Source: Nitrospira tepida (lineage in GTDB: Bacteria; Nitrospirota; Nitrospiria; Nitrospirales; Nitrospiraceae). Taken from it: 64,000 nucleotides of DNA. The translations under genes and the position numbers were made by a program. Position 1 is the stretch's first letter, and each line of letters starts with the position of its first letter. Shown here one piece after another: positions 4,517 to 23,406 of this stretch. Below the pieces are notes generated by a model, which was not told the origin of the DNA, did not search any database, and saw only the letters and a list, made by a program, of their open reading frames with translations. The stretch covers positions 62,001 through 126,000 of the forward strand of contig NZ_OX365700.1 in assembly GCF_947241125.1 (NCBI RefSeq), read 5' to 3'.

Positions 4517-5134
4517 TTATCCTCCACTCTTGAATCGTTTCATCCTGAACAGGTCTTCCCGCTCGCGCTCTTCGAGGGCCTGTCGAATGTTTCTGACCTC
4601 TCGGGTCAGCGCGGGGAGCACCACTTCATTGAGCGCATTGATCCGGCGCGTCACCTTCTTGATTTCCGATCCCAGCTTCTTCAGCCGCATCTCCACCGCC
4701 ACGCTGCGAAGGATCAGCTCCAGCGCCTGTTCGAAGCGCCGCGCCGTTTCGTCCACGTAGCTGGACTCTCCTGAGGGGGCGTACCCCCGGGCGTCCCACG
4801 CCCGGCCCACCGGGGCGTAGCGGACTTCCGAAAACCTGACGCCCCACACGTTGCGCTCGGTCAATTCGATGGACAACGTCCGCTTTGCCGCATGGCCGGC
4901 CGATCGGAGCGGCGCGCGGCCTTCCATGCCGAGCGCCAGCGTCAGCGTCGCCAGGGCGTGCCCCATCACGGCTTCCATTTGCGTCCGGCTTTCCGCCGCA
5001 CGGTCCATGACGGCGAAGAACTCCCGCACCAGCGCCTCGCGCTTGCTGCGGAGCAGCTCCAGTCCCCGCCGAACGACCTCGCCCCGCCGCTTCAGCAGCA
5101 ACAAATTCATTCTGGTGCGGCCGACGCTTTCCAT
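4517..5134 (-). CDS. atpD: V/A-type ATPase subunit D (central stalk)
   Basis: The 205-residue protein is predicted to be the coiled-coil rotor shaft of the V1/A1 sector. It shows the typical start SVGRTRMNLLLLKRRGEV, a long central helical region and a C-terminal helix (LPALTREVRNIRQALEERER) that would insert into the A3B3 hexamer. The start at 5134 was chosen because the family begins a few residues before the RMNLLLLKRR segment. It follows atpB by 6 bp. Confidence 0.93.
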   Translation of the reverse strand: MESVGRTRMNLLLLKRRGEVVRRGLELLRSKREALVREFFAVMDRAAESRTQMEAVMGHALATLTLALGMEGRAPLRSAGHAAKRTLSIELTERNVWGVRFSEVRYAPVGRAWDARGYAPSGESSYVDETARRFEQALELILRSVAVEMRLKKLGSEIKKVTRRINALNEVVLPALTREVRNIRQALEEREREDLFRMKRFKSGG

Positions 5135-5140
5135 AGGTCG

Positions 5141-6628
5141 TTAATCGTCAATCGTCATTCGTGTAAGGCCGGTATTGTCTTCAGGTACGATTGACGCTTG
5201 CCGAGTGACGTGTGACGTTGGCCCGTAATACCGTTCAATCAACTCCGGCTTCAGCCTGGTCAACCGCTCTTGCGGCAGATATCGCAAGAACTTCCACCCG
5301 AGGTCCAAGGTCTCTTCAATCTCACGAACACGCGATCCTTGGTTGACGAAGTGCTGCTCAAAGTCCTGGGCTAGCTTCAAGAAGCGCTTGTCGGACTCAC
5401 TCAGACCGTCCTCGCCGACGATGGCGGCAAGACGCCGGACATCTCGCCCCTGGGCATAGCAGGCATAGAGTTGATCAGCCACCGCCCGATGATCCTCGCG
5501 CGTCTTGCCGGGACCGATCCCGAGATTCATCAGCCGCGACAGGCAGGGCAGCACATCGATGGGCGGAAAGACGCCTTTGCGATGCAGCTCGCGTGACAGC
5601 ACAATCTGTCCCTCCGTGATGTACCCGGTCAAATCGGGGATCGGATGAGTCAGATCATCGTCCGGCATGGTGACGATGGGAAGCTGCGTGATGGACCCGG
5701 CTTTGCCCTTGATCCGTCCGGCCCGCTCATAGATAGAGGCCAAATCAGAATACATATACCCGGGGTAGCCTCGCCGGCCTGGGATCTCCTCACGGGCCGT
5801 GGCGATTTGACGCAGCGCGTCACAGTAGGCGGCCATGTCGGTCAGGATGACCAGCACGTGGCGACCGAGCGTGAACGCAAGGTACTCAGCCACGGTCAGG
5901 GCAAACCTCGGTGTCAGGAGCCGTTCGATCGTCGGGTCATCGGCAAGGTTGAGGAACATGACGGTGTGCTCCATGACCCCGCCGCGCTCGAACTCATCGA
6001 GAAAGAACGAGGCTTCCCGGAACGTGATCCCCATCGCCGCAAAGACAATCGCGAACGAAGGGGACTGTCGCCCTTCTTGGCCTCCCGAGGCCGGCGGCTG
6101 TCCCCGCACCTTGGCGTGGCGAACGATCTGAGCGGCGACTTCCTTGGCCGGCAGGCCGGCCCCGGAGAAAATCGGCAGCTTTTGCCCGCGCACCAGCGTG
6201 TTCAGCGCGTCAATCGTGGAGATCCCGGTCTGAATACAATGCGAGGGTTTGTCGCGCGCGACCGGATTCAGGGGCTGTCCGACGATGTCCACGCGGGCGT
6301 CGGGAATGATCGACGGCAGACCGTCGAGCGGGACGCCGGCACCGCTGAAGCGCCGCCCCAAGAGATCGGGCGAAAGATCCATTGCGGCGGCCGATTCCGT
6401 GAGCCGGACTCGGGTCCCGGTCACTCCCAAGCCCGTTGTCTCCTCCAGCACTTGGATCACGGCATGCTGTTCGGACAGCTCGATGACTTGACCTCGCCGG
6501 GCCTCCCCGGTCGCGAGAATGATCTCAACCAGCTCTCCAAGGGAAGCCTTGGTCAGCTTCTCCGCAAAGAGGAGCGGTCCGGCAATGCCGCTCACGGTCC
6601 GATATTCGCGGGTGATCAGATCATCCAT
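5141..6628 (-). CDS. atpB: V/A-type ATPase subunit B (regulatory)
   Basis: This is the non-catalytic nucleotide-binding subunit of the hexamer. The open frame extends upstream, but homology begins at [21 protein letters not shown], giving a start at 6628 and 495 residues, normal for the family. A canonical P-loop is absent, as expected for B ([16 protein letters not shown] occupies that place). [25 protein letters not shown] is typical B-subunit sequence. It lies 44 bp after atpA and 6 bp before atpD. Confidence 0.95.
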
Positions 6629-6672
6629 CTTCCACCACCGACTTGCCCACCTGACGCCTCCGGCCGCACCCT

Positions 6673-8406
6673 CTACGCCTGTGCCTCCTGCTGCATGTTC
6701 TCTATCATGGTTCGGGCCTGCTGGATGCAATCGTCCGGAGGCGTCTCCTTCATGCGTTCCAGCTCGCTTCTCAACGGCGAGGCGAGGAGTTGCTCGATCG
6801 GACGGCCTTGCTTCAGCATGGCCTGGCAGTAGGCGAGAAACTCCATCTGGGCCTTCAGCATCCAGTACTGCTTCCCAAGCGGACAGGCCGCGTCAATGTC
6901 GGAATAGGCATTCTGTCTGAGATACTCTTCTCGTATGAGGCGGCTGACCTCTAACACGATGCGCTCCTGATCCGGGACCGCATCAATCCCCACAAGCTGC
7001 ACGACCTCCTGCAGGTCTTCTTCTTTCTGGAGAAGCGCGGCCAACTCGGTTCGAAGCTGCGGCCAGTCCGGAGCCACCTGCGTCTGAAACCAGGGGTCGA
7101 GCGCGTGGGTGTAGAGGGAAAAACTGCGCTTCCAATTGATGGCGGGGAAATGCCGCCGATGCGCCAGATCCGAGTCCAAGGCCCAGAGCCCTCCGGCCGC
7201 CTGGATCGAGCCTTGTGTCACCGGCTCTGAAAAGTCGCCCCCGGGTGGGGAGATGGCCGAGACGATCGTCACCGCCCCCTGTCGGTCCGGTTCTCCCAAG
7301 CAGCGGACCCGTCCACCACGTTCATAGAATCCGGCCAGCTTGCTGGCCAAATAGGTGGGATATCCTTCCTCTCCCGGCATCTCTTCCAGCCTGGCGGAAA
7401 TCTCACGCGTCGCCTCTGCCCAGCGCGACGTGCTGTCGGCCATGAGGGCGACCGCATAGCCCATATCCCGGTAATATTCCGCGATCGTGATGCCCGTGTA
7501 GATCGACGTCTCCCGCGCCGCCACCGGCATGTTCGAGGTATTGATGACCAGGACCGTGCGCTCCATGAGCGGCAACCCGGTGGCGGGATCTTTCAGGTGG
7601 GGAAACTCGGTCAGGACCTCCGTCATTTCGTTGCCCCGCTCTCCGCACCCGATGTAAACGATGATATCGGCCTGCGCATACCTGGCGAGCGTCTGCTCAA
7701 CCACGGTCTTGCCGGTTCCGAACCCGCCGGGCACTATCACAGTTCCGCCGGAGGCAAGGGGAAGGAGCATGTCGAACACCCGCTGGCCGGTGATGAAGGG
7801 CACGACCGGAGGAAGCCGTTCGGCGACGGGGCGGGACGTCCGCACCGGCCAGCATTGCAACAAGGTCAATGGACCGTGACCATCGAGCCAGGCCACCGGC
7901 TCCTCGATCGTGTAGGCGCCTCCCTCAATCTTGGAGAGCGTTCCCGATAATCCTGGGGGGACCAGGATGCGATGTTCGATCTTTGCGGTCTCCTGGACAA
8001 CTCCCACGCAGGTTCCGCCGCCGACGGCTGTTCCGGGACGGGCCACCGGAGTGAACGCCCAGCGTCGGTCTCTGGACAGGGCCGGCAAGGTCAGGCCGCG
8101 CGCAATCCAATCACCGTACTGGGCCGCGATCACGTTCAATGGACGCTGGACCCCGTCGAAGACGGTGCCAAGCAGACCGGGCCCGAGTTCCACTTGAAGC
8201 GGTTCTCCTGCATCGGCCACCTCTTCCCCCAGCATCAGGCCCGTGGTGTCTTCATACACTTGAATCGTCGCTTCGCTTCCTCGCAGACGAATCACCTCCC
8301 CGAGCAATCCTGTCTTGCCGACCGCGACACGATTGAACATGCGGGTCTGTTCCATGCCCCGCGCGAGGACGGTCGGCCCCGAGATCTTGATGATCGTTCC
8401 GCTCAT
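6673..8406 (-). CDS. atpA: V/A-type ATPase catalytic subunit A
   Basis: The 577-residue catalytic subunit hydrolyses or makes ATP. The P-loop GGFGTGKT lies at 227-234, followed by the [11 protein letters not shown] segment. The roughly 90-residue non-homologous region that separates A from B and from F-type beta is present before the P-loop. The start codon overlaps the stop of atpF (8403-8406), so translation is probably coupled. Usual pro- and archaeal A subunits are 575-600 residues, so this one is full length. Confidence 0.97.
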
Positions 8407-8732
8407 CGTTTGAGTTTCAATTGATATCCGATCGCCCGCCGGAGGAGGCGGGCGAGATAGTGCTCCCGCATGTCTCCCTCACGTGTGGCCTGAGAGACCG
8501 GGATGGCATAGAAGACCGGGCTCACCGATTCCTCCATCTCGCTCAGGCTCTTCTCTGGAAGCCCCCACCGGTACTCCTCGTTATAGATCACGATTCCGGC
8601 CTTTCTGCTGCAGAGGAGCGAGAGTAGTTGCTCGGCGGCCTCCTCCTGGGCGCCCACTTCGCGCACATCGACACCGGCCAATCGGAAACCCAGCGCGGTA
8701 TCGGGATCGGTGATGACGATGAGTCGAGCCAT
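8403..8732 (-). CDS. atpF: V/A-type ATPase subunit F
   Basis: The 109-residue Rossmann-like protein matches the small rotor subunit F, which binds the D shaft. It begins MARLIVITDPDTALGFRLAGV, the usual beta-strand plus D-x-D-T-A-x-GFRLAGV pattern. The position between C and A in the operon agrees. Confidence 0.92.
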   Translation of the reverse strand: MARLIVITDPDTALGFRLAGVDVREVGAQEEAAEQLLSLLCSRKAGIVIYNEEYRWGLPEKSLSEMEESVSPVFYAIPVSQATREGDMREHYLARLLRRAIGYQLKLKR

Positions 8733-8826: not shown

Positions 8827-9894
8827 TCAGACGATCAGCCATTCCTCGACTTGCTCCGGTTGCATTCCCGCAGCCTTCCCTCGCAGGATCATCCGGAGGT
8901 TGCGGATCTCGTTCGTCTTCCGTTCAAGGTAGACGATCGCCGGGCCAATGCCCAACGGGTCTGGCCGAGAGAGGCCGACGGCGTGGCGGACGGCCGCACG
9001 GTCCAATTCTCTCTCGACGAGCGGGGGAGATACGGAGTCCCTGGCTCGAAACAGGTCGGCCAGCCATCCATAGGAGGTGGCGGCAAGGCGGTTGAGTCCC
9101 TCGCGCAGATCGGGCGCGCCGATGACCGCCTCATACTGAGTTCGGGTGAACCGGCCCCCTGCCTCAAGGAAATGGCGGCCGGCCTCTATCGACAAAAGAG
9201 CGCGACGTTCAGCCAGGTAGCGGAGCGCCGTCAGAAGGTTCGCCTTATCCGCGAGAAACACGAGATAACTCCTGACGGCTCGGTCATGATCATCTCCGTC
9301 AACCGCGAGTCGGCATGAGCGCATAAACGTAAATCGGTCGAGTTCAGACTCAAGCGGTTGCAGGTCGTCGGCCTCCCCAAGTTGGTTCAGCCCCGATCGA
9401 ACTGGACGAGCGAGCGGAAGCCGCCACAGCTCCAGCAAGTGAGCCACGGCTTGCATGGTCGGCGCTCGCGCAAGTTCGGCCACGGCGATGTCGTCGAGGA
9501 CCCCCACCGGAAACGTCATGGCCAAGACCTCCTCGACCGGCGCCGCCGCCCGTTTGCCGCGCAGGACGGTTTTCAGATTGTAGACGTCCCATCGGAGGAG
9601 GAGCGCGTCGAGCAATTCACGCGATCGATCGGAGAAGAAGCGCCGAAGGATGCCGAGGGTCTCCACAAGGTCTCGTCGCAGAGCCTCATCGAGATAACCG
9701 ATCGTCCGGAGGCCCTGGGCGCGATCGAGCGTGGCGAGGATGGGCTCCAGCGCGCGCGCATACGGCAAACTCTTCAGGGCATTGATCAGGGCATCAAGGG
9801 TCGCCTGCTCCAGCAAAGACGCATACTGGTCCCGGCGGAGGAGGCGGCCCTCCATGGCGCGGATCCTCGCATTGGTGTAGGCATAGTCGTCCAT
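8827..9894 (-). CDS. atpC: V/A-type ATPase subunit C (d-like)
   Basis: The 355-residue alpha-helical protein matches the C/d family that couples the rotor shaft to the proteolipid ring. Recognisable segments are the N-terminal YTNARIRAMEGRLL and the repeated helical motif RWDVYNLKTVLRGK. The gene is separated from atpE by a 0.5 kb stretch holding an inserted repeat element, whereas the other genes of this operon are close together. Confidence 0.92.
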   Translation of the reverse strand: MDDYAYTNARIRAMEGRLLRRDQYASLLEQATLDALINALKSLPYARALEPILATLDRAQGLRTIGYLDEALRRDLVETLGILRRFFSDRSRELLDALLLRWDVYNLKTVLRGKRAAAPVEEVLAMTFPVGVLDDIAVAELARAPTMQAVAHLLELWRLPLARPVRSGLNQLGEADDLQPLESELDRFTFMRSCRLAVDGDDHDRAVRSYLVFLADKANLLTALRYLAERRALLSIEAGRHFLEAGGRFTRTQYEAVIGAPDLREGLNRLAATSYGWLADLFRARDSVSPPLVERELDRAAVRHAVGLSRPDPLGIGPAIVYLERKTNEIRNLRMILRGKAAGMQPEQVEEWLIV

Positions 9895-9945
9895 TTGTCG
9901 TCCAATCTCTTAGCCCGCATTATTCATGACGATTCGTCGCGTTCC

Positions 9946-9972
9946 ACCCGTTGCATTGGAAGCGCAACGGGT
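9946..9972. repeat. Short palindromic repeat, ACCCGTTGC type
   Basis: ACCCGTTGC at 9946-9954 pairs perfectly with GCAACGGGT at 9964-9972 across a 9-base loop. This is one of four similar hairpins in the window. Confidence 0.6.
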
Positions 9973-9995
9973 ACCCGGCACTCGCCAAGCGTTGG

Positions 9996-10024
9996 ACCCA
10001 TTGCAATGAAAAAGAGCAATGGGT
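9996..10024. repeat. Short palindromic repeat, ACCCATTGC variant
   Basis: ACCCATTGC at 9996-10004 pairs with GCAATGGGT at 10016-10024. It is a compensated variant of the neighbouring hairpin: a G-C pair became A-T on both arms. Confidence 0.6.
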
Positions 10025-10271
10025 ACCCCCAAGCACAGCCGCGAAGGACCAAGGCGTACTTGAAACAGTACGTCGAGGGGCGCACGGCGCGATGAATAAA
10101 GAGCGCCATGTCTGTGCGCGCCGCCGAGTTGGTGAGGCGGCCGGACCTGAGCGGCGAGCACGCCCGCCATACCAAGCTTCGCTTGAGCCGCCGCGTCCGA
10201 TCACATCGCGGCGGAGAGATACTTTGCCTTCGACTTCTCATGTAGGCTCTGTCGCAGCGGCGAATCGGGGC

Positions 10272-10298
10272 GCCCGTTGCTCCTCTGTTGCAATGGGC
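10272..10298. repeat. Short palindromic repeat, third copy
   Basis: GCCCGTTGC at 10272-10280 pairs with GCAATGGGC at 10290-10298, with one G-T wobble. It lies just inside the right end of the MITE-like element. Confidence 0.5.
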
Positions 10299-10396
10299 CA
10301 AGGCAGCAGAAGCGTTCATGAATAATGCGGGTTAAGGCTGAGGTTAAGACGAAGGATTCGCCCACGACCGGGCTAACCTCAACCTGAGCCTCGGCC

Positions 10397-10987
10397 TTAC
10401 CCTTCTCTGAACAACAGTCGGTTCAGTTCGATTGTCAGGGCCGGCTTAGCCTTCGCGAGGCGCGCCGCAAAGGAGTTCGTGAGCACCTCGCCGTTCGCCT
10501 CAAGCGCGATCCCCAGTAGGAGCGCATCCTGATGCCGCTCTTCCACTGCGAGGCCTCGTTGTTTCAGACTCTCCTCAAGGAATGGCCGCTCCCGATTGTC
10601 AACGAGCACGCGAGGCGATTGAGAAGGGGATGCGGCCAGCACTTCCGCCAGCAGGGCCCTGAGGACTCGCGTCCGAGCATCGCCGGCGAGCGACAGGGCT
10701 TTCTCGCCGGCGTGTCGCCACACGGCATCCAAGATCTCTCGCTTGGCCTGCAGCACGATCTGGCGGCCGGCCAGCGCGGCGCGGGCCAGCAGTGCGGCCC
10801 GCCGGGCAGAAAGGTCTCGACGAATGATGAGATCGACCTCAGAGGCCAAAGCGTCGCATTCCCGCTTCGCGTCAGACAGGAGCCGCTCGGCTTCCACCTG
10901 AGCCTGATGCAGGATCGCGTCGCGTTTGGCTCGTCCCTCTTCCAACAGCGCCTCGATGAGCCTGTCGTACGGCATCGTGAGACTCAC
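10397..10987 (-). CDS. atpE: V/A-type ATPase subunit E (peripheral stalk)
   Basis: The 196-residue protein has a long charged N-terminal coiled coil (LIEALLEEGRAKRDAILHQAQVEAER) and a compact C-terminal domain, the pattern of subunit E in the peripheral stator. It pairs with subunit G/H encoded upstream at 13154-13552. Its start overlaps the atpK stop by four bases (10984-10987). Sequence similarity in this family is low, so the call leans on operon position and architecture. Confidence 0.85.
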   Translation of the reverse strand: MSLTMPYDRLIEALLEEGRAKRDAILHQAQVEAERLLSDAKRECDALASEVDLIIRRDLSARRAALLARAALAGRQIVLQAKREILDAVWRHAGEKALSLAGDARTRVLRALLAEVLAASPSQSPRVLVDNRERPFLEESLKQRGLAVEERHQDALLLGIALEANGEVLTNSFAARLAKAKPALTIELNRLLFREG

Positions 10988-11205
10988 TTCAGCGCGAAGA
11001 GAATCAGAATGGCCACGGTGAAGCCGAAGATGACCAAGGTTTCCGGGATGACGAGTAATATCAACATCGTCCCGAAAGTCTCGGGCTTCTCCAAAATGGC
11101 GCCAATCGCCGCTGCACCAATCTTAGCCTGCGCCAACGCGGTAGCCAGCGCGGCCAGTCCGATCGCCAGGCCCGCACCGATGGCGACGAGTCCGATCTCT
11201 GTCAT
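10984..11205 (-). CDS. atpK: V/A-type ATPase proteolipid subunit K (c)
   Basis: A 73-residue two-helix hairpin is predicted from the start at 11205, which follows a GAGGGGG ribosome site. The longer frame to 11241 lacks a good site. Helix 1 is glycine- and alanine-rich and contains Gln26 in ALAQAKIG. Helix 2 contains the ion-binding Glu55 in IPETLVIFG. The membrane ring of these hairpins carries the coupling ion. The single-hairpin form is like Thermus rather than the duplicated four-helix form. Ion specificity (H+ or Na+) cannot be decided from this motif. Confidence 0.92.
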   Translation of the reverse strand: MTEIGLVAIGAGLAIGLAALATALAQAKIGAAAIGAILEKPETFGTMLILLVIPETLVIFGFTVAILILFALK

Positions 11206-11237: not shown

Positions 11238-13157
11238 TCACCCTCGAACGGGCGGGGTCGCGTGGAAATGCCGAAAAGGCTTGTACGGCCTGCCGCCAGG
11301 CGCAAAGAAGTTTTCGAAAAATTCCACATAATGGAGCCGGAGCGATTGGATGGTCGGCGAGAGGATGCCGAAGACGACATTGATCCCGTGGAGTGCTCCC
11401 GCGACGACGATGCCCACGAAGACGTTGCCCACCAGGCCGCCCAGCTTGTTGGCGGCAAAGGCGAGCGCGGCCGACGCGACACCGATCCCCATCAGACGCA
11501 GGTAGGAGAGCACATTGACGAGGTTATGCAGTTCCATGACCCCGCGGCCCCTTCCGAAGATAAAGATGATCAGCAGCGCGCACAGGAGTCCGACGACCTC
11601 GGCCGCCATCCACTCGCGCGGCACGAGTCCGGCGGCGCTTGCGATGAGAGAGATGAATGACAGCACCAGCACCATGCCGCCGCACTTCGTCAGACACTCC
11701 TGCCGGTTCCCATGCCGCCAGGCCGAGTGCGCACCCAGCGCAAGCCCTAACACCACATGCGCCGTGCCGATTCCGATGGATAGGGAGAGAAGAGGCAGGA
11801 ACGCCTGCATGCGGTTCAGCACCGGATGCAGACCGACGGACCCGCCCAGTTCCCCAAACAGCTCCCCGAACAGGAAACCGAACAAGATGGCCGAGCCCGA
11901 AGCCCACAGGAAGATGGTCGAAAGGTCGCGAACGAGCGGATGGGAACGGTGCCGTCGGCGAACCATGGCTGCGGCGACAAGCAAGAGCAGCCCATAGCCG
12001 ACATCGCCGAGGATCACGCCGTAGAACAGGGGAACACACACCGCCATATAGGGGGTCGGATCGATGCTCCCGTACCGTGGCAAGGCCACGACCCGGGTCA
12101 ATGTCTCGAACGGCCGGGCAACGACCGGGTTCCGCAGTGTCACCGGAACAGTCGCCCATTCCTTGGGAGCAACCGGACATGCTTCCAATACAACCTTGCC
12201 GCCGAATTCGTCTTCGATCCTGAGACGCAAGGCGGTGAGCATCTCGCATGGGACCCAGCCATAGATCAGGAGAGCCATCTCGGTGTGATAGAAATACAGG
12301 CTCACTTCAATATGTTCGAGACCGCACACAATCGCATCGTAGTACTCCGCCAATTCCTGACGCCGCTGGAACGCCACGGCTTTCAGCTCCCGGCGATAAC
12401 GGTCCGCCTCGCGGGGAAGGTCCGTCTTTTTCTGAAGGAGCAGGCGCATGGCCTCTCCCAGGGGTTTATCCGCGACGGAGACGGGCAGCCGCAGTTCGGC
12501 GATGCCTTCTTCCCACAACAGATTGCGAACTCTGGCGCTATGCACCCTTGGAAACATCAGCAGCACCACAAGGGAACGTGCGTCTATCCGTGTATGGAAC
12601 AGCTCATAACGATTGTCCGTGATCTTGGCCATCATTTCGCGCAGGAGCGGCAGGAGAGCGCCGGAACCTTCGCGCTCATCGAGCGTCACGCCGAGGTGGT
12701 CTAATTCCTCGCTGTCCTGGATGAACCGTAAGAACGGAGCCAGCCCCGCCAAGGCCCTCTCGTATTTGGACAGGAGTGCCAGCTCTTCCTCACTTGTCTT
12801 CAGCCTGGTCGCAAGGTCATCAACATGACGACCGATCTCCCGGACCAGACCGGCGAGGCGGGTGAGGCCGTCTTCCGTCAGTTCCGGATGTCGAGTGGGG
12901 CGTGCGATCATTCGCTCATCCGCCGGAATCTCCGGAAGGAGCAGAAGCAGGCGGCGCACGTCTTCGCGCAATCGTTCCAGTTCAGCTCGTCGCCGTCGGG
13001 CGGCTTCATCCATCATCTGCGGCCGAAGGGGAACCTGAGCCGCTTCCAATGGGGTCGACTCGATATGCAGGACGCCAACCTCCTGGAGCGTCGAGGTGAC
13101 TCGGTCGATAAGCGTCCGGGGAGAGGCCACTCGTACCTTTGCCATTGGCTCAATCAT
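11238..13157 (-). CDS. atpI: V/A-type ATPase membrane subunit I (a)
   Basis: The 639-residue protein has a soluble N-terminal half of about 330 residues forming the stator arm, then a C-terminal half with about seven or eight membrane helices that forms the ion channel against the K ring. Helical segments such as VPLFYGVILGDVGYGLLLL and LRLMGIGVASAALAFAANK are typical of subunit I. Its start overlaps the stop of the G/H gene (13154-13157), and 32 bp separate it from atpK. Confidence 0.94.
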   Translation of the reverse strand: MIEPMAKVRVASPRTLIDRVTSTLQEVGVLHIESTPLEAAQVPLRPQMMDEAARRRRAELERLREDVRRLLLLLPEIPADERMIARPTRHPELTEDGLTRLAGLVREIGRHVDDLATRLKTSEEELALLSKYERALAGLAPFLRFIQDSEELDHLGVTLDEREGSGALLPLLREMMAKITDNRYELFHTRIDARSLVVLLMFPRVHSARVRNLLWEEGIAELRLPVSVADKPLGEAMRLLLQKKTDLPREADRYRRELKAVAFQRRQELAEYYDAIVCGLEHIEVSLYFYHTEMALLIYGWVPCEMLTALRLRIEDEFGGKVVLEACPVAPKEWATVPVTLRNPVVARPFETLTRVVALPRYGSIDPTPYMAVCVPLFYGVILGDVGYGLLLLVAAAMVRRRHRSHPLVRDLSTIFLWASGSAILFGFLFGELFGELGGSVGLHPVLNRMQAFLPLLSLSIGIGTAHVVLGLALGAHSAWRHGNRQECLTKCGGMVLVLSFISLIASAAGLVPREWMAAEVVGLLCALLIIFIFGRGRGVMELHNLVNVLSYLRLMGIGVASAALAFAANKLGGLVGNVFVGIVVAGALHGINVVFGILSPTIQSLRLHYVEFFENFFAPGGRPYKPFRHFHATPPVRG

Positions 13158-13552
13158 TCATCAGCCTGTAACCGGCTCTCGGGGCCATCCTGAAGCGAGT
13201 CGTCCGCGGCTCCCTTTGAGCTCGGCAGAATCCGCTCAAGCACCAGTTCGACCGCCTCGTCCATGCTGCCCATGCACCGGGCCTTCAGATTGCCTGCCTT
13301 TGCCCGTATCTCCGTGAGCAGTTGTTCAGCCTCACGTGCTGCCTCCGCGATGCTCTTCGCCTCGGCCTCCGCCTTCTTCCGCTCAAGAGAGCGACGTGTC
13401 TCCAGTAACAGGGTTTCAACCTGGGCCCTCGCCCTCGCGAGAAGGGCCGTCGCTTCCTGCTGCGCCGCCTGGACCATGCCGTCCACGCTCTGCTCGGCAG
13501 CTTGGATGTGGATGAGAATCTCCGGAGACTGCTGATCCGAAGGCTCCGACAT
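13154..13552 (-). CDS. V/A-type ATPase subunit G/H (stator coiled coil)
   Basis: From the start at 13552 the product is 132 residues, almost entirely a charged, alanine-rich coiled coil (ARARAQVETLLLETRRSLER, AEAREAEQLL-type heptads). Such a protein pairs with subunit E in the peripheral stalk. The gene is first among the ATPase subunits, 22 bp after the FHA-protease gene. An upstream in-frame ATG at 13600 would add 16 residues and overlap that gene, so 13552 is preferred. Confidence 0.82.
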   Translation of the reverse strand: MSEPSDQQSPEILIHIQAAEQSVDGMVQAAQQEATALLARARAQVETLLLETRRSLERKKAEAEAKSIAEAAREAEQLLTEIRAKAGNLKARCMGSMDEAVELVLERILPSSKGAADDSLQDGPESRLQADE

Positions 13553-13574
13553 AGCTGCCTCAGATTGGGACCAC

Positions 13575-15200
13575 TCAACTGTCCGAGTGAAGTAATTCAT
13601 CGACCCTGGCGGCCGGCACGCCGGAGCCGACCGCGCCGAATCGGGTCATGATGGATGAATGGACGGCAATGAGTTCTCCTTGGCTGTTGAAGATCGGACT
13701 CCCACTGCCGCCACTCGTGGTCTGGGCATCATGGATAATGCGATTCGGCACGGCATCGCTCACGTGGCCTTGCGTGGTCAGCGGTCTGACAAGCCCTCGG
13801 TCGGCCAGGTCTTGCATCAGCTTCTGCAAATTGCGCTCGGCTCCTTTCAAAAGCTCGGTGGCAGCGTGTTCATCCAGCCTCGCCAAGATCCCTTCCAGAC
13901 CTGAGGGGTAGCCAACAACGACGACCGCTTCGCCAGGGACTGCCTGAGGCGATGGCTTCTCCAGGGGAACCGGCGTCATGCCCCTGGGCTCCGGAGTGAG
14001 CTGGGCCAGCGCCACATCTCCTTGCTCAGAGAGCTTCAGGACGGTGACGTCATAGGCCTGCGCCCGGCCGGGGAAATAGGCACGCATGATCACCAGGCGC
14101 GGCTCGAGACCGGCTTGGAGCATCTCCGCCGTTCCTTTCGGATCCATGGACCAGGGCTCGGCGAGGTGCCGATTGGTCACGATACGCCCCTCCGCATCGA
14201 TCAGAAAGCCGGTGCCGGTGTACTCCAACAGGGTATGGGGCGCCTCCTCTTTGTCGCCCTTTTCGACAAAGCCGTAGGCAATGTACAAGAGGCAGGTTGA
14301 CGGGCCGAACCGTGTGATCAACAGTTCGGCATTGTTCCGTTCAGCCTCCAACGTTCTCAGACGTAGGGTCAACGCCTCGAGTGCTTCCGATGAAGCGCCT
14401 TTCTTGCGCTGTTCCTCCACCATCACCATTAAACGTTGTTCTTCCGTCTCATGGATCGCCAAGGTCTCGGTCAGCCGCCTCCGTTCGTCTGCGCTGTTCT
14501 GCTCCAATTCGGCCAAAGAGATGCGAGACAGCTCAAGCTCCCTCAACAACGAGGCGATATGGCGTTCATGAGCCTGTTGCGTGAGGTAGTTATAGTAGGC
14601 CAGCCCTCCGATGGCCGCGATGAGCATCACGAGCAAGCCGACCACGACCACTTGCGTCGCCAGGGTGGCATTCCGCACGATCTCAAAGGCGAGTTGGCCG
14701 ACGAAAGACCGGAGGGTCACGCGTCCGTCAGCACGTCCAGCGGAAGCGACGTCGCGGGCATCTTGCAGAATCTCCTTGAGCTGCTTGCAAAGCGTATATT
14801 CTTCGGGGCGGATGCGGAACCGGAGGGTGGGGCCGTTCGGCCCCAGTTGAATCACGTCCCTGTCACGAAGAATGATTTCCTCAACCGCTTCGCGATTCAC
14901 CAATGTCCGTGCTGCCGGATCGCAGTTGCGCAGCCGCATCTCGCAATTCGCCTGGAACATCTCGGCTTGCAGAGGCGCAACCGGGCACTCGCCATTTGCG
15001 GGAAAAGATACATCGACGCCGGGGGCGCTGCCGAATGTCACCGGCGCGCGTTGGAAGAACTGCGTCTCCCCTCGGCGACGCCCCGAAAGATGGATGAGCG
15101 AAAATCTCAAACCGCTGCCGGACGGCCGGCGAAGCGCGGCATCAGGCGCGTCGTCGAGGACGGGTGCGTGCATCATCTCGCGGCTCGTGACTGTCGCCAT
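13575..15200 (-). CDS. Membrane-anchored FHA and trypsin-like serine protease protein
   Basis: From the ATG at 15200 the product is 541 residues. The N-terminal part (about 30-150) looks like an FHA phosphothreonine-binding domain (PVTFGSAPGVDVSF, DRDVIQLG, LRFRI). One membrane helix follows (VVVVGLLVMLIAAIGGLAYY), then a coiled coil, then a trypsin-like domain with a visible triad: His in VTNRHLAEP, Asp in GDVALAQL and Ser in SGGSGSPIFN. It may therefore sense a phosphorylated partner inside the cell and cut proteins outside, as HtrA-like proteases do. It is the first gene of the ATPase operon, 22 bp before subunit G/H. Its link to the ATPase is unknown. Confidence 0.85.
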   Translation of the reverse strand: MATVTSREMMHAPVLDDAPDAALRRPSGSGLRFSLIHLSGRRRGETQFFQRAPVTFGSAPGVDVSFPANGECPVAPLQAEMFQANCEMRLRNCDPAARTLVNREAVEEIILRDRDVIQLGPNGPTLRFRIRPEEYTLCKQLKEILQDARDVASAGRADGRVTLRSFVGQLAFEIVRNATLATQVVVVGLLVMLIAAIGGLAYYNYLTQQAHERHIASLLRELELSRISLAELEQNSADERRRLTETLAIHETEEQRLMVMVEEQRKKGASSEALEALTLRLRTLEAERNNAELLITRFGPSTCLLYIAYGFVEKGDKEEAPHTLLEYTGTGFLIDAEGRIVTNRHLAEPWSMDPKGTAEMLQAGLEPRLVIMRAYFPGRAQAYDVTVLKLSEQGDVALAQLTPEPRGMTPVPLEKPSPQAVPGEAVVVVGYPSGLEGILARLDEHAATELLKGAERNLQKLMQDLADRGLVRPLTTQGHVSDAVPNRIIHDAQTTSGGSGSPIFNSQGELIAVHSSIMTRFGAVGSGVPAARVDELLHSDS

Positions 15201-15235: not shown

Positions 15236-15457
15236 CTACAGACCGGAAGGACCACCACCCTCTTTCACGATCTGTCGCCTCTTCGCCAGAGCCTCTGCCT
15301 GGATCAGGTTCTTGCAATGGTCGCAAATCCAATGTCCATACAAGAGGGCCGGTCCCATCTGCCCGCAAAGCAGACAATGGCTGGGCTTTTCGTACGGTGA
15401 TGTCTCTTCACTCTTCTTTTCGGGCTTCATGTCTGTTTGGTCGTCTGCCTTCATCAT
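15236..15457 (-). CDS. Small zinc-ribbon-like protein
   Basis: A 73-residue protein starting at 15457 after a good GGGAGGG site. It has two CxxC pairs, CLLCGQMG and CDHCKNLIQ, spaced like a treble-clef or zinc-ribbon fold. It is charged and has no membrane segment. It lies 35 bp upstream of the FHA-protease gene on the same strand and may be co-transcribed with it. No specific family is recognised. Confidence 0.65.
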   Translation of the reverse strand: MMKADDQTDMKPEKKSEETSPYEKPSHCLLCGQMGPALLYGHWICDHCKNLIQAEALAKRRQIVKEGGGPSGL

Positions 15458-15650: not shown

Positions 15651-16853
15651 TCACCCCCGCCCTCCCGGCCGGCGCTCGATCGGGACATAGCCTCGGCCAT
15701 GCGGGCCGTCATAAATCTGGTCCGGGCGGAAGAGCTTATTGTCCTTGATCTGCTCCAGCCAATGGGCCAACCAACCGCTCACGCGGGCCATCGCAAACAC
15801 ACAGGTAAAGAAGTCTTCATCAAGACCCATCGTCTTGTAGAGCACGCCGGAGTAGAAATCCACGTTGGCGTGGATGCCCTTCCCAGCCAGCAACTCCTCC
15901 CCCACACGCTCGACCTCTTCTGCGAGCTTATAGAGGGGGGAGCGCCAGGATTCTGCCAGGAGCCGCTGCGCCAGCTTTTGGAGAATGATGGCTCTCGGAT
16001 CTTTCACCTTGTAAATGCGGTGTCCGAAGCCCATGAGCTTCTGCTTCGCGGCCAGCCTCTGCATGATGTACGGCCGGACATGGTCCACGGATCCGATCTC
16101 TTCCAACATGTCCACGGTCTCTTGAGCGGCTCCGCCGTGTAACGGTCCTTTCAAGGTGCCGATGGCCGAGGAGACCACGGTGTAAGGATCGGCCAGAGTG
16201 GAGGCGGTCACCATGCCGCTGAAGGTGGACGCGTTCATCGTATGTTCAGCATGAAGGATGAGGCAGGTGTCGAGCATCTTCGCGATCAGAGGGTCCGGGA
16301 CCGTTTCAGTCAGCATGTAGAGAAAGTTGCCGGCATGGTCCAAATCATCGCGGGGCTGAACCTGCTCGTCACCGCGCCGGAGCCGATGGTATGCGGCCAC
16401 AATCGTGGGCATCTTGGCGATCAGCCGGACGGCCGACCAGTATTGCACCTGAGGATCCAAGACGTGCCTGGCCGGATAAAACATCCCAAGAGCCGCCACG
16501 GCCGCCTGCAGCGCATCCATGGGATGGCCCTGTTCCGGCAAACACTTGATGAGATCCGTGATCCGATACTTGATGCGCCGGTGCTGGGTCACATCGGATG
16601 TGAACCGATCGAGTTCCGTCTGATCCGGCAGGCGATCGTAGAGCAGCAGGTAGGTCGTCTCCAGAAAGGAACTGTGTTCCGCCAATTCTTCGATTCGAAT
16701 CCCGCGATATTCCAGCAGACCAGTCTCGCCATTCACGAAGCTGATGGAGGACCTGGCGGCGGGCACACCGGCAAGCCCGGGTGAAAACTCCCGCCGGACA
16801 GCTTCCGAGCTAGCCGTCGCCTCAGGCGTGGTCGCCTTCACGTCTCCCTTCAT
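15651..16853 (-). CDS. gltA: Citrate synthase
   Basis: From the ATG at 16853 the protein is 400 residues. Family motifs are clear: ETGLLEYRGIRIEELAE near the N-terminus, LILHAEHTMNASTF (catalytic His region), GPLHGGAAQETVDML and MGFGHRIYKVKDPR. The catalytic Asp is expected near DFYSGVLY. The enzyme condenses acetyl-CoA and oxaloacetate. It is of the short bacterial/archaeal type, so 2-methylcitrate synthase activity is possible. If the host uses the reductive TCA cycle, as Nitrospira does, the oxidative role is uncertain. The start overlaps the stop of the upstream zinc-ribbon gene by four bases. Confidence 0.92.
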   Translation of the reverse strand: MKGDVKATTPEATASSEAVRREFSPGLAGVPAARSSISFVNGETGLLEYRGIRIEELAEHSSFLETTYLLLYDRLPDQTELDRFTSDVTQHRRIKYRITDLIKCLPEQGHPMDALQAAVAALGMFYPARHVLDPQVQYWSAVRLIAKMPTIVAAYHRLRRGDEQVQPRDDLDHAGNFLYMLTETVPDPLIAKMLDTCLILHAEHTMNASTFSGMVTASTLADPYTVVSSAIGTLKGPLHGGAAQETVDMLEEIGSVDHVRPYIMQRLAAKQKLMGFGHRIYKVKDPRAIILQKLAQRLLAESWRSPLYKLAEEVERVGEELLAGKGIHANVDFYSGVLYKTMGLDEDFFTCVFAMARVSGWLAHWLEQIKDNKLFRPDQIYDGPHGRGYVPIERRPGGRG

Positions 16854-17128
16854 GGTCCTGACCTCTGTTGAGGATGCGTGACGCACTTCCATCCGAAGCC
16901 CGCGCACCCGCTGGGATTGCCGCCACGGCCCCGCTTGCCGGCCTGCTCCATCCTGTTCTTCACGATAATCGGATCCAGCCGTTCCCCGCAGATCACGCAA
17001 CGCCAGCCCTCGGCCAAGCCGGCCCCTTCCTCGAACTCCTCCCAAACCAGGAGCCCGCCGCATCGATCACACCGATCAGGACGTTCTCGCTGCGCGCGCT
17101 CGGTCCCGCTGGCTTCCGTCGTCAACAT
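16850..17128 (-). CDS. Small zinc-ribbon protein upstream of citrate synthase
   Basis: A 92-residue protein is predicted from the ATG at 17128. It has two CxxC pairs, CDRCGGLLVWEEF and CVICGERLDP, that would bind one zinc. A short basic tail containing GKRGRGG follows. It overlaps the gltA start (ATGA at 16850-16853), so it is probably translated with citrate synthase. It resembles the small CxxC proteins common in Nitrospira genomes; function unknown. Confidence 0.7.
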   Translation of the reverse strand: MLTTEASGTERAQRERPDRCDRCGGLLVWEEFEEGAGLAEGWRCVICGERLDPIIVKNRMEQAGKRGRGGNPSGCAGFGWKCVTHPQQRSGP

Positions 17129-17329: not shown

Positions 17330-17764
17330 TTACCCATCGCCCCAGAAGAATTCGTCCCAGTTGACGGTCTTGTCCCACCACTGCTTGTGGCGCTTGACGT
17401 CGTGCAAGGCCGGCGGCGTCACCTGGTAACAGTAATCCCAGATCGCGTCCGCGACCTTGGCGCTGATCCCGCCGTCTCTGGATTCCAGCATGTCCATGAA
17501 GCGGTTCATGGCCGCGTAGGTTCTCTCCTGATCACCATTCTCGTAGGCGTGACGCACGACGTGGAGTTGGTCGAGATAGATCTCAAACCTCGTGGATTCC
17601 CCATTGACGAGCGCAGCCCCCTGCTGGGCCACCACGAACCCCGTCAACTCCTCAAGCCATCCGTCCCGCGGCACCACAGACCCTGATTCGCCGCTCACCG
17701 GAAGGAGGAGGATCGCGGCTACGAGGCCAGCTCGCCACATCGCCTGATTGAATGTCGGCTTCAT
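17330..17764 (-). CDS. Exported protein of the MNRFMDMLE family, copy 1
   Basis: A 144-residue protein with an N-terminal signal peptide (LVAAILLLPVSGESG) and a helical mature part. Shared family features are WLEELTGFVV, AAMNRFMDMLESRDGGI at about 85-100, and the motif C-x8-H-x4-H (Cys112, His121, His126) ending in an aromatic tail (WWDKTVNWDEFFW). Six copies occur in 17.3-30.2 kb. The invariant Cys and two His could bind a metal, which is inference. I do not recognise the family. It is the second gene after the cupredoxin gene at 17931-18419. Confidence 0.8.
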   Translation of the reverse strand: MKPTFNQAMWRAGLVAAILLLPVSGESGSVVPRDGWLEELTGFVVAQQGAALVNGESTRFEIYLDQLHVVRHAYENGDQERTYAAMNRFMDMLESRDGGISAKVADAIWDYCYQVTPPALHDVKRHKQWWDKTVNWDEFFWGDG

Positions 17765-17841
17765 GGTTCAGCCCTCCGTTTCGTGTCAGTCTCCACGCTC
17801 GGTTCCGGCCGCCTTCCCGAACAGGAAGGTTGGGAAGGACA

Positions 17842-17882
17842 GGCGCGAAACGTGGAGGAGGCCGAAGCCCGCGTTTCGCGCC
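17842..17882. terminator. Intercistronic hairpin
   Basis: GGCGCGAAACG at 17842-17852 pairs perfectly with CGTTTCGCGCC at 17872-17882 around a 19-base loop. It lies between a cupredoxin gene and the next family gene on the minus strand. There is no clear U-run, so it may tune expression of the downstream gene rather than fully end transcription. Confidence 0.5.
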
Positions 17883-17930
17883 GCGAGGCGGGGCTAACCG
17901 CTGAACAACCCCGCGCCTATCTCCGCCGCT

Positions 17931-18419
17931 TCACCGCGACCCAACGAAATAGATGTGCCCGCCCAGATGCCAATCCTTGTGCAGCGGACACCAGACGCGG
18001 AACAGCAATCCCGGGCCACTCACGCGGGCCCCCTCGAACTGCGCCGTGCTCACGATGATGCGCTTGGTCTCACCCGGAGGCACGCTGACACGAATGGGCT
18101 TCAAGTGGTAGACCATTCCGGCTTCCTCCCCGGGCGCCAGCGCTTCCGTGCTTTTTTCCGCCGTCATCTCAAACATGCCTCGGACAGCGAACGCGTGCTC
18201 TTCCTTCGTGGGATTCTCCAAGATAAACGTGAGCCCGCCCTTCAAGTCCTCGTCGTCCATCATCACCTGGTTGGGCTGCCAGATCGCCCACCTTGGAGGC
18301 ATCATCTCCGAGGCCACCCATCGAATCTCGCCTGCCTGTGCCGTCTCGCCGGCGAATAAGCCGACAAGGAAGACGACGGCAAGGCCTGCCGCATAGCCTA
18401 TGTCTTTCCATTTCCTCAT
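17931..18419 (-). CDS. Periplasmic cupredoxin-like protein, family A, copy 1
   Basis: A 162-residue exported protein; start 18419 follows a GGAGG site and a signal peptide ending near TAQAGE. The mature part is beta-rich with the family A pattern: LTFILENPTKEEHAFAVRGMFE (first putative Cu ligand His), an LKPIRVSVPPGET strand, and a C-terminal loop WCPLHKDWH with Cys, His at +3 and another His at +7. This is a plausible type-1 or nitrosocyanin-like copper site. It is the first gene downstream of operator copy 1 (18592-18617), about 170 bp away. Its closest relatives are the four other family A copies in the window. Confidence 0.8.
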   Translation of the reverse strand: MRKWKDIGYAAGLAVVFLVGLFAGETAQAGEIRWVASEMMPPRWAIWQPNQVMMDDEDLKGGLTFILENPTKEEHAFAVRGMFEMTAEKSTEALAPGEEAGMVYHLKPIRVSVPPGETKRIIVSTAQFEGARVSGPGLLFRVWCPLHKDWHLGGHIYFVGSR

Positions 18420-18591
18420 GGCCCGTCCTCCTATCTCACCGGATCTCCGTTCTCGCACACCGACGATCCTGAGCGGGTGAGTGTGCACGGCACCACCGAC
18501 TGCTGACGCTCACCTCCTTTCCCGTGCCTCCCGTTCAAGACCCGCCGAGTCGTGTTCGCAACTCCACCATATGGTCTGGCATGGTCGCGCA

Positions 18592-18617
18592 CAATGAGCA
18601 GGTGGCCTCATTTTGTG
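18592..18617 (-). promoter_or_regulatory. 26-bp operator-like element, copy 1
   Basis: On the minus strand this reads AAAATGAGGCC followed by CTCATTG, with a perfect palindrome AATGAG-N8-CTCATT. Two further copies (23953-23978 minus, 26522-26547 plus) share AAAATG and CTCATTG at identical spacing. Each lies upstream of a block of cupredoxin-like genes. This copy sits between the PAS-LuxR gene and the block starting at 18419. Confidence 0.65.
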
Positions 18618-18663
18618 CCTGGGGCGACGGCCTCAGTTGATCGAGAAGGCGTTGCCGCGGAAG

Positions 18664-19371
18664 TCAGGGAGCGGTGGGCGGACTGGTGCGCGCTAGTCGG
18701 CATGGCAGCGAGCCGGTCCCCGGAGGAAAGGCGATCGCGAGGGCCTGGAGCCGGCTGTGGGCGCCCAGTTTTGCAAGGATGTGTTGGATGTGATTGCGCA
18801 CGGTCTTGGGACTAATGCTCAGGGTCTCGGCGATGCGCGCGGATGTGGCGCCGGTGGCTACCAAACGAAGGACTTCCCGCTCCCGTTCGGTGAGCGGGAG
18901 GGTTGCCGGGATGTCCGGCGGCGAGTCCGGCCGGATTTCCGCTACGGGCGATCCGGGAGATCCGAGCACGACTTGCAGCTCCTGTACCAAGTGTCGGGCC
19001 CGCACTTGGTTGGTGATATCTCGAAACAAATGGGCGATCCAAAAGACGTTCGGTTTGCGGGAGGGGACCGGCAGCGTGCTCACGTTCAACCAGAGGAGGC
19101 GGCCGTCCTTCGTTCGTGTCTGCATGTCGAACTGTCTGACCCCGCCGCCGCTTCGGATGCGGCTCGCGATCGGGCAGGTCGGCGAGCACAGGGGTTGACC
19201 GTTCAGCGTCTCACCGCGAATGATCTCACAGCAGGGACGGCCCATGACCTCCTGGGCGTTGAACCCCAGCAAGCGTTGAGCGACTCGATTCCAGAACGCC
19301 ACCTTCCCGTCCTGGTCCACCACCATGGCGCCCTCAGCCGCCCGTCCCAGCATGGCGGTGAGCTGTTTCAT
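18664..19371 (-). CDS. PAS-LuxR family transcriptional regulator, copy 1
   Basis: A 235-residue regulator. An N-terminal PAS domain (about 5-125) starts with EGAMVVDQDGKVAFWN and carries three cysteines in GRPCCEI and PLCSPTCPI that are also present in the second copy. A C-terminal LuxR-type HTH ([25 protein letters not shown], about 170-225) follows. There is no receiver domain, so the PAS domain is the likely sensor, perhaps through its cysteine cluster. It lies just upstream of operator copy 1 and its target genes. It is a paralogue of the protein at 24133-24837. Confidence 0.88.
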   Translation of the reverse strand: MKQLTAMLGRAAEGAMVVDQDGKVAFWNRVAQRLLGFNAQEVMGRPCCEIIRGETLNGQPLCSPTCPIASRIRSGGGVRQFDMQTRTKDGRLLWLNVSTLPVPSRKPNVFWIAHLFRDITNQVRARHLVQELQVVLGSPGSPVAEIRPDSPPDIPATLPLTEREREVLRLVATGATSARIAETLSISPKTVRNHIQHILAKLGAHSRLQALAIAFPPGTGSLPCRLARTSPPTAP

Positions 19372-19422
19372 GGTCGTTGTCCGCGAACAGTTCGCAGCGA
19401 ATAGCCCGGACTCGGCTTTCAG

Positions 19423-19677
19423 CTACTCACGACGTACTTGCTGTTCGTTCTGCTCCTTCGCCTCGGCCGCCGCAGCAACCGCTAGCCGTGAAAGCTCCTG
19501 CTGGAGCCGGTCCCGTAATTTCATGAGAGCCTTGAGGCGCGGCGACCGCCAGACCGCCAGCGGAGTACCTTGGTGAACCTTGTCGCCGCCATGGCTCTGA
19601 TCCGAGCGGCGACATGTGGACCAGCCCGGTTGCGTGCCTCGTGCCCTGCCTCTCGCCGCTGCTCCCTCTTGAATCAT
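19423..19677 (-). CDS. Hypothetical short helical protein or relic
   Basis: The last about 50 codons encode a plausible helical protein (LAVWRSPRLKALMKLRDRLQQ), but the upstream part has no ribosome site and looks random. It fills the 0.3 kb gap between the PAS-LuxR gene and the next exported-protein gene. The start is not defined. It may be a gene remnant. Confidence 0.25.
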   Translation of the reverse strand: MIQEGAAARGRARGTQPGWSTCRRSDQSHGGDKVHQGTPLAVWRSPRLKALMKLRDRLQQELSRLAVAAAAEAKEQNEQQVRRE

Positions 19678-19695
19678 GCTCGGGCAATTCCAGAG

Positions 19696-20139
19696 TTAGC
19701 CCGGCCACCGGACGCCTTCAGGCGCTCGGGGCTGTTCAGTTTTGGGCGGTCCGCTATGTCGTTCCACGTCATGGAACTGTGCGGGGGTCACGAGATTGCA
19801 AAAGTTGAACAGCTCATTCGCCGCCACGCCGGGAATCCCTCCCTCACGAGCCTCCAACATGTCCATGAACCGATTCATGGCCAGATAGGTCGCATGGATG
19901 TCCCCTGCCGCGTACGTTGTCTGTACCAGCCGTACCTGGTCGAGGTAGAGATCCCAATCGGCTCTCGGATATTCCTTCTTGTAATAGGCGTCCCCCTTGT
20001 AGAAGATGATGGCGCCGTGGATGTCGTCAATCCAGGTGAAGGGGCGCGAATCTGCCTGTACAGCCATCGGTGCCAGCACGCAGGCGAGTCCCGCAACCAG
20101 CGCCATCGCCGTCATGCTTATGTGAGTGCCGTGTTTCAT
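19696..20139 (-). CDS. Exported protein of the MNRFMDMLE family, copy 2
   Basis: A 147-residue protein; the start at 20139 follows GAGGTG and gives a clean signal peptide ending near PMAVQAD. It retains LAMNRFMDMLEAREGGI and the motif C-x8-H-x4-H in FCNLVTPAQFHDVERH. The C-terminus differs from copies 1 and 3: the aromatic tail is replaced by a proline-rich end (PPKTEQPRAPEG). The middle (IIFYKGDAYYKKEYPRADW) is also divergent. Eighth and last of the genes in the minus-strand block that starts at 23824. Confidence 0.78.
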   Translation of the reverse strand: MKHGTHISMTAMALVAGLACVLAPMAVQADSRPFTWIDDIHGAIIFYKGDAYYKKEYPRADWDLYLDQVRLVQTTYAAGDIHATYLAMNRFMDMLEAREGGIPGVAANELFNFCNLVTPAQFHDVERHSGPPKTEQPRAPEGVRWPG

Positions 20140-20189
20140 CGTTGCACCTCGGAATGATTGTGTCTGACTCACTGTGCCGTTCGTTCTGT

Positions 20190-20633
20190 TCACTCCTCCC
20201 AGAAGAACTGCTCCCAATCCACGCGCTTGTCCCACCATTCCTTATGTCGTTTGACGTCATGCAAGGACGGTGGGGTCACCTCGTAGCAGTAATCCCAAAT
20301 CGCATCGGCGGCCTTGGGATTGATGTCCCCTTCTCGGACTTCCAACATGTCCATGAGGCGGTTCATGGCCATGTAGGAGCCGTTCCAGTCACCTCGGTCA
20401 TACAGACTCCGCACCAGGGTGACCTGGCCGATGTAGGGATCGAACGATCCTGGCTCATCCTTGGCCTGGGCGATTCCTCGCTGGACGACGACAAAGCCGG
20501 TCAGTTGATCCACCCAGCCTGCCGTGCTTGCAGGACTGGCTCCCGACTTGAGCGGCGTCAGGAGCAATATCGCTCCAAGGAAACCAGGCGCCAGGGCTGC
20601 GATGAGCGATCTCTGGCAAACAATCCGGTCCAT
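20190..20633 (-). CDS. Exported protein of the MNRFMDMLE family, copy 3
   Basis: A 147-residue protein with a signal peptide (LIAALAPGFLGAILLLTPL). The mature part is close to copy 1 and to the frameshifted copy at 29767: WVDQLTGFVVVQRG, SYMAMNRLMDMLEVREGDI, then CYEVTPPSLHDVKRH and a WWDKRVDWEQFFW tail. Putative metal ligands are the Cys and two His of C-x8-H-x4-H. It lies about 90 bp after the cupredoxin gene at 20722, the same neighbour relation as copy 1 and the 29767 copy. Confidence 0.8.
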   Translation of the reverse strand: MDRIVCQRSLIAALAPGFLGAILLLTPLKSGASPASTAGWVDQLTGFVVVQRGIAQAKDEPGSFDPYIGQVTLVRSLYDRGDWNGSYMAMNRLMDMLEVREGDINPKAADAIWDYCYEVTPPSLHDVKRHKEWWDKRVDWEQFFWEE

Positions 20634-20721
20634 GGTTCATTCCCCCTCTCTTTTCTTCTCTCACAGGCCTGCGCTCTGATGGACCCGGCTCCTCCGTCTC
20701 GCGTGAAGACCGCTGTTTCGA

Positions 20722-21201: not shown

Positions 21202-21266
21202 GGCCGCAAATGCTCTCCCTTCGGTCTCTCCAGGGTCTTCTGCAAGGAGGAACATCTGATCAGCCG

Positions 21267-21734: not shown

Positions 21735-21763
21735 GCGACATGCCTCCAGGCTAGAAGACCCCC

Positions 21764-22258: not shown

Positions 22259-22392
22259 GATGGACCTCCTTGTCTCGAAACATGAACTGCTCACGGCTGA
22301 ACTTCTCATCACCATCCGTTCCTGCCCTCCGACAGGATCTTCACGTCATCACCTCCCCTCTCTGACGGACTGTTGACTCCACGTACTAACCC

Positions 22393-23332: not shown

Positions 23333-23406
23333 GACCCGCCTCTTCCCTCTGTCGGTGCATTCTCTTCCCTTCCCCATTGGCCGTTCGCTTGACCGTTCCT
23401 ACAGGC

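Follow-up and report, generated by a model that had tools for sequence, protein, structure and literature searches.

A predicted membrane serine protease with an FHA-like domain precedes V/A-type ATPase genes in Nitrospira tepida

Known membrane-anchored stress proteases of the HtrA type, such as DegS and AlgW, sense damage outside. We analyzed a stretch of 64,000 nucleotides of the Nitrospira tepida genome (contig NZ_OX365700.1, positions 62,001 to 126,000; the window), in which a gene directly upstream of genes for a V/A-type ATPase encodes an HtrA-fold serine protease domain joined to an N-terminal FHA-like domain. On balance we consider it probable that the product is a stress-related single-pass membrane protease whose cytoplasmic domain docks to or senses a partner without reading phosphate, and that its position at the ATPase genes reflects lineage-specific co-expression, the protease not being part of the ATPase.

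The C-terminal part matches Pfam family Trypsin_2 with 75 bits (cut-off 27.6), as do all members of a set of 20 homologues (E up to 0.01), and the catalytic triad His315, Asp365 and Ser469 is kept in 20/20, so that the trypsin-like domain looks intact, as the first-pass annotation had it, and is predicted from its residues to be active. In Foldseek its model finds solved structures with a best E of 1.1e-11, and VIA-align gives Z of about 20 to 21.7 against chains of DegS, DegP, DegQ and HtrA1. DegS without its PDZ domain gives Z 21.7 (root-mean-square deviation, rmsd, 4.3 over 186 residues), a second entry for DegS reaches Z 21.6 (rmsd 2.3 over 181) and AlgW Z 20.9, and DegS shares the single membrane anchor. 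Unlike DegS and AlgW, the window protein has a presumably cytoplasmic FHA-like domain and a long helical stalk, there is no evidence for an RseA-like substrate, and a PDZ domain is absent from the families matched by the 20 members (E up to 0.01), the chain ending with the protease domain. The protein thus has the chymotrypsin-like fold and the triad of HtrA/DegP proteases but is not filed among them because the C-terminal PDZ domain is absent. Another membrane-associated trypsin-like protein, deposited as a 'possible membrane-associated serine protease' (3k6y, 3k6z and 3lt3; profile match E 1.5e-9), is presumably Rv3671c/MarP, a protein with which M. tuberculosis resists acid; MarP differs in having no FHA domain and several membrane helices.

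FHA domains bind phosphothreonine in a pocket whose motif includes an Arg, a Ser and a His. The N-terminal domain of the window protein scores 17.7 bits against Pfam FHA, under the cut-off of 20.7, while FHA and Yop-YscD_cpl are each matched by 18 of the 20 homologues (E up to 0.01). Modelled alone, it reaches a predicted local distance difference test (pLDDT) value of 89.9 and superposes on GarA and OdhI, the closest solved FHA folds, with Z 17.0 and rmsd 1.4-1.5 over 97-98 residues. The beta-sandwich is therefore that of an FHA domain, but the Arg/Ser phosphate pocket is not: the phosphothreonine-binding Arg, which follows a conserved Gly, is missing in 20/20 homologues and the motif Ser is kept in only four, whereas the His is kept in 17, the window copy having Gln. 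GarA and OdhI, by comparison, are soluble and keep the Arg. The order of FHA domain and membrane helix, as well as a fold match to 4a0e, recalls YscD of type III secretion, in which ring-building domains take the place that Trypsin_2 holds in all 20 homologues. A Hanks-type kinase is matched once in the genome, ~1.85 Mb away from the protease and beside a different, stronger FHA gene; at 1926845-1928793 of the contig this sole match lies ~1 kb from the strongest FHA-domain gene of the genome. With the Arg missing throughout and the kinase beside another FHA gene, the proposed link to phospho-signalling is disfavoured.

Between the two domains there is a single hydrophobic segment with its peak at residues 154-172, followed by a putative coiled coil; the model has helices at residues 150-236 and 241-271 with low confidence (block pLDDT 53-63 over residues 191-260). 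The whole-chain model has a mean pLDDT of 79.7 and a predicted template modelling score (pTM) of 0.53, at which relative domain placement is not reliable. The most likely arrangement would place the FHA-like domain in the cytoplasm and the HtrA-fold domain on the far side of the cytoplasmic membrane, at the end of a long helical stalk. The domain composition proposed in the first-pass annotation thus stands for both end domains and for one helix, with the FHA match below the Pfam cut-off in this copy and the coiled coil putative. In the open-licence literature we did not find a description of an architecture of FHA or receiver domain, membrane segment and trypsin-like protease; the available passages of PMC7159879 deal with conflict systems and not with this architecture.

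The gene order on the minus strand is citrate synthase, a 73-codon open reading frame (ORF), protease, AtpH, AtpI, AtpK, AtpE, AtpC, AtpF, AtpA, AtpB and AtpD (Table 1). The stop codon of the protease (13577-13575) is separated from the AtpH start codon (ATG 13552) by 22 bp, the distance to the stator gene given previously, although the interval then assigned to the protease (13154-15200) covers AtpH as well. The gap holds no listed site resembling a terminator or promoter, so that the separate promoter and terminator considered in the first-pass annotation did not appear; the promoter scan, with 1 site in 12.5 kb against 2.7 expected by chance, carries little information. The protease may start at ATG 15200 (541 aa) or at TTG 15110 (511 aa), where most aligned homologues begin or carry Met/Val. 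It can no longer be called the first gene of the operon, since the zinc-ribbon-like ORF stops 35 bp before ATG 15200 and is also found just upstream of the protease in the genomes G012 and G014 and, truncated, in G022. All Pfam zinc-ribbon-type matches of this ORF are below cut-off, and a zinc-ribbon match in G098 (40.9% over 22 residues, E 0.007) was judged to be due to chance.

Table 1 Features of the locus in window coordinates (residues in 511-aa numbering) and of related ATPase operons
Feature	Position	Strand	Basis or remark
Citrate synthase	15651..17063	-	Pfam 452.7 bits; gene upstream of the run
73-aa zinc-ribbon-like protein (C-x2-C ... C-x2-C), probable first gene of the run	15236..15457	-	Open frame and homologues in relatives
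FHA-like/transmembrane/long-helix/HtrA-fold serine protease (predicted)	13575..15200	-	Open frame, Pfam, model
N-terminal FHA-fold domain without phosphothreonine-binding Arg	14796..15110	-	Fold match and residue table
Trypsin-like (HtrA-fold) domain; no PDZ	13575..14300	-	His315/Asp365/Ser469
V/A-ATPase peripheral stalk (stator) subunit H/G, AtpH	13154..13552	-	Profile/Pfam homology, co-occurrence
V/A-ATPase subunit I	11238..13157	-	Pfam V_ATPase_I 49.9 bits
V/A-ATPase proteolipid subunit K	10988..11205, ends approximate	-	Identity by eye from translation
V/A-ATPase subunit E	10397..10987	-	Pfam vATP-synt_E 28.5 bits
V/A-ATPase subunit C	8827..9894	-	Pfam vATP-synt_AC39 210.5 bits
V/A-ATPase subunits F, A, B, D	4517..8732	-	Open frames, named by eye; same order in G022
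CBS-domain gene pair	L129 4920-6092, same slot in L130, L131		Three related ATPase operons

The gene downstream of the protease is, judged by homology, that of ATPase stator subunit G/H. Pfam V-ATPase_G_2 is matched by 7/7 AtpH homologues, the window copy with 23.7 bits and thus under the 28-bit cut-off, and the AtpH profile finds subunit G of the Thermus V-type enzyme (E 1.4e-5 to 2.6e-5). AtpH is present in seven of 27 genomes searched; these coincide with the seven genomes of family f1 that have the ATPase, with one copy each; the match in G012 was reported with two internal stops because it runs past the stop codon of the gene itself.

Of Nitrospirales genomes, 4.8% are reported to carry V/A-type ATPases (at least 50% completeness), whose gene order differs in lineage IV (PMC12342949), and an acid-tolerant comammox enrichment expressed V-type ATPases more strongly when conditions were acidic (PMC13109103); the passages available from these two papers do not mention the protease. 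We scanned 235 genomes of the order with the window protein alone as query (E up to 1e-20, best six candidates per genome scored) and found the protease in 30 genomes, including the G022 remnant, contig-end pieces and the protease half only in G020 and G076. The ATPase C subunit is present in 11 genomes and both genes in three, namely G000 (this genome), G012 and G022, leaving 27/30 protease genomes without a C subunit match. An accessory subunit of the V/A-ATPase is expected wherever the ATPase is; the protease accompanies 3/11 ATPases, one of them as a remnant. Protease members occur in families f2 and f3 of the order as well, and in an even sample of the phylum (n=395 genomes) the family profile matches 13 at 1e-40, each of them a member of family f1.

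The present genome has both the protease and the ATPase set intact. In G022 the protease is reduced to residues 1-13 plus, in another frame, residues 416-511, and the zinc-ribbon ORF keeps residues 41-72, whereas the frames of AtpH, I, E, C, F, A, B and D beside it stay open and the junction of the remnant with AtpH also measures 22 bp; this decay is read from one assembly, in which an assembly error is possible. The order zinc ribbon, protease and AtpH is kept in G012, a draft of 84% completeness, with a protease-AtpH gap of 31 bp and, after AtpH, a gene that reads by eye as a phosphoribosyltransferase; citrate synthase, AtpI, E, C and F lie on a second contig, with citrate synthase directly before AtpI. 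The remaining four family f1 genomes with an ATPase (G096, G098, G132 and G134) possess AtpH and AtpI and have no protease at 1e-20. When all 11 ATPase genomes were searched again with the protease family profile (E up to 1e-3, all candidates scored), these four gave partial matches only, the best covering ~50 residues round the Ser motif (E 1.3e-9), as would be expected of ordinary serine proteases. Two CBS-domain genes fill the slot upstream of AtpH in G098, G132 and G134 (Pfam was run on the G098 pair only), and other reading frames fill it in G096. Partial protease matches only were also found in the ATPase genomes outside family f1 (G036, G205, G206 and G219), where AtpH has no match at 1e-6; G205 and G206 have weak AtpH-like matches (E 0.001 to 0.007) inside their ATPase stretches. 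Some genomes are incomplete and these absences are provisional. The adjacency of protease and ATPase genes is thus older than this one genome, contrary to the refuting case named in the first-pass annotation, yet it is limited, being dispensable to the ATPase and unusual for the protease.

A different neighbour is more common. In a survey of 31 protease loci (the 30 matches of the order scan, one locus each, plus a contig-edge piece in G014) with a fixed set of probed genes (E up to 1e-5), a tandem universal-stress gene (Usp, 183 bits) immediately follows the protease, on the same strand, in 16 loci, which makes it the commonest probed neighbour; AtpH takes this position in three (G000, G012 and G022). 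The distance to Usp is 25-104 bp in 15 loci, and in G176 Usp overlaps the end of the match. G229 is a seventeenth locus of the Usp-linked type, where the contig ends. Elsewhere a Usp-like gene lies 30 bp upstream of the protease (G037), LuxR and small-protein genes lie upstream on the opposite strand (G059), or a zinc ribbon and LuxR lie upstream (G014). A tree of 20 protease rows unites its seven Usp-linked rows in one branch (100/100) and places its two AtpH-linked rows in a five-row branch (100/100) in which they are not mutual nearest, so that two state changes are needed. In L040, L041 and L046 the Usp-linked protease lies some kb from a conserved gene labelled cDPGS (label unverified) and from an amino-acid-kinase-family gene (Pfam was run on the L041 copy only); the surroundings of the Usp-linked protease may represent a stress or dormancy island.

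The protease family extends beyond the FHA type. A scan of a species-genome collection yielded 49 loci, and in 29 distant rows aligned with the window protein the triad is visible in 29/29 and Trypsin_2 is matched in all 29 proteins scanned; one of these rows (L067) is a Nitrospirota FHA member. Most share the homologous transmembrane, helix and Trypsin_2 part but differ in having a receiver-type N-terminus instead of FHA (23 rows, 22 of them titled Acidobacteriota or a subgroup and one Betaproteobacteria). Response_reg is matched in 22 of the 23, of which 21 are over the cut-off and L085 is below it; L080 is unmatched. The phospho-acceptor Asp, counted by eye in these 23 rows aligned with the window's own response regulator, is kept in two (L066 and L069) and exchanged for other residues in 21, with Glu in one of them (L085); L067, L068, L093, L094, L095 and L097 were left out of this alignment as truncated or of other type. 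The N-terminal type does not strictly follow the phylum, since L078 (Blastocatellia) and L090 (Acidobacteriota) match Yop-YscD_cpl and not the receiver family; L065 (Gemmatimonadetes) matches FHA. It is conceivable, although we would sooner doubt it than rely on it, that all these proteins are inside-out signalling proteases, with a dead cytoplasmic domain, one membrane helix, a helical stalk and an extracytoplasmic HtrA-fold protease, in which binding of a cytoplasmic partner switches envelope proteolysis. Phosphate chemistry would then have been lost in the FHA domain without Arg (Nitrospirota and some other phyla) and in the receiver without Asp (21/23, mostly Acidobacteriota), and the partner would be the universal stress protein, the ATPase stator or another protein.

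Several other explanations of the window locus were weighed. That a canonical, phosphothreonine-reading FHA domain couples Ser/Thr kinase signalling to the protease is very improbable: the fold is closest to GarA and OdhI, which belong to kinase pathways, and the genome does have one kinase gene, but the pocket residues are lost and that kinase adjoins another FHA gene. Unlikely as well, if much less so, is a dedicated ATPase factor, with the stator subunit or its complex as the target that the protease matures, protects or removes. The tight spacing to AtpH, preserved even at the G022 remnant, and the position of the sole G012 AtpH next to the protease and away from AtpI speak for such a role, but four of seven family f1 ATPase genomes do without the protease, most protease genomes show no ATPase C subunit, the gene is gutted in G022, and AtpH is a cytoplasmic stalk protein, while the protease domain is expected outside. 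Taken together, the split contigs of G012, the decay in G022, the four ATPase genomes without protease and the 27/30 count leave the earlier suggestion of a link to ATPase assembly or quality control unsupported as an obligatory role. Somewhat less unlikely is that the block came to lie upstream of the ATPase genes by chance, without purposeful co-regulation, as the variable contents of the slot upstream of AtpH and the citrate synthase gene directly before AtpI in G012 may indicate; against this, the gap between protease and AtpH is too tight for a promoter or terminator and is kept in G000, G022 and G012.

The reading that we prefer is of a single-pass membrane serine protease with a core role in stress physiology, acting in the manner of a DegS-type envelope stress protease but run from inside. 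Partner binding by its FHA-like domain most likely needs no phosphothreonine and would therefore set where or when the protease acts. In one Nitrospirales branch the block of zinc ribbon, protease and AtpH heads the V/A-ATPase operon, and protease and ATPase are therefore probably co-expressed, without the protease being a working part of the ATPase. Several observations weigh against this reading. The mean number of lysine plus arginine residues flanking the membrane segment is 2.8 vs 2.35 in the 20 FHA-type rows and 4.2 vs 4.3 in the 23 receiver-type rows, values that do not decide the topology. Nine of the 31 loci (G021, G050, G217, G073, G074, G188, G076, G020 and G229) show no probed neighbour in the available sequence, and three of these (G021, G050 and G217) belong to the window's own subfamily, although several of the nine contigs are short; it is the neighbouring genes, and they alone, that suggest a stress role. 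In G012 the adjacency of protease and AtpH persists though AtpI, E and C lie on another contig, and this AtpH is the only copy found there, consistent with a closer connection to the stator. No stronger hint of a functional link between protease and ATPase remains than this kept pair.

The history of AtpH was followed in trees of seven rows. A grouping of G000, G022 and G012 is not in the best AtpH tree and is not rejected (approximately unbiased test, p-AU 0.119), is rejected by AtpI (p-AU 0.0002) and is left undecided by AtpC (p-AU 0.076) and AtpE (p-AU 0.061). A mosaic origin of AtpH, moved together with the protease from a G012-like source, was suggested by sequence identities and dropped as unproven.

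Other features of the window include an element of 428 bp, bounded by 21-nt terminal inverted repeats, between AtpE and AtpC (9909-10336), which with 103 full or partial matches across this genome looks like a non-autonomous mobile element resembling miniature inverted-repeat transposable elements; in G022 the AtpE-AtpC distance is only 27 bp. An acyl-CoA-dehydrogenase-like gene (by eye) follows AtpD (3353-4507) and is found in the same place in G022. Positions 17330-24837 hold a series of small paralogues that look secreted and fall into at least two families, plus two PAS-LuxR-type regulators; one family is cupredoxin-like by eye, and two members scanned had no Pfam match. In G012, G014 and G059 the small-paralogue and regulator families also lie upstream of the protease.

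The claim of an assembly factor for the ATPase is thereby tempered, with the protease-AtpH pair of G012 as one clear hint that remains, and the kept pairing with a universal-stress gene provides a direct candidate partner for the protease. If our interpretation is true, a cytoplasmic sensor with exchangeable, seemingly phosphorylation-dead domains would offer a route from the state of the cell to proteolysis in the envelope.

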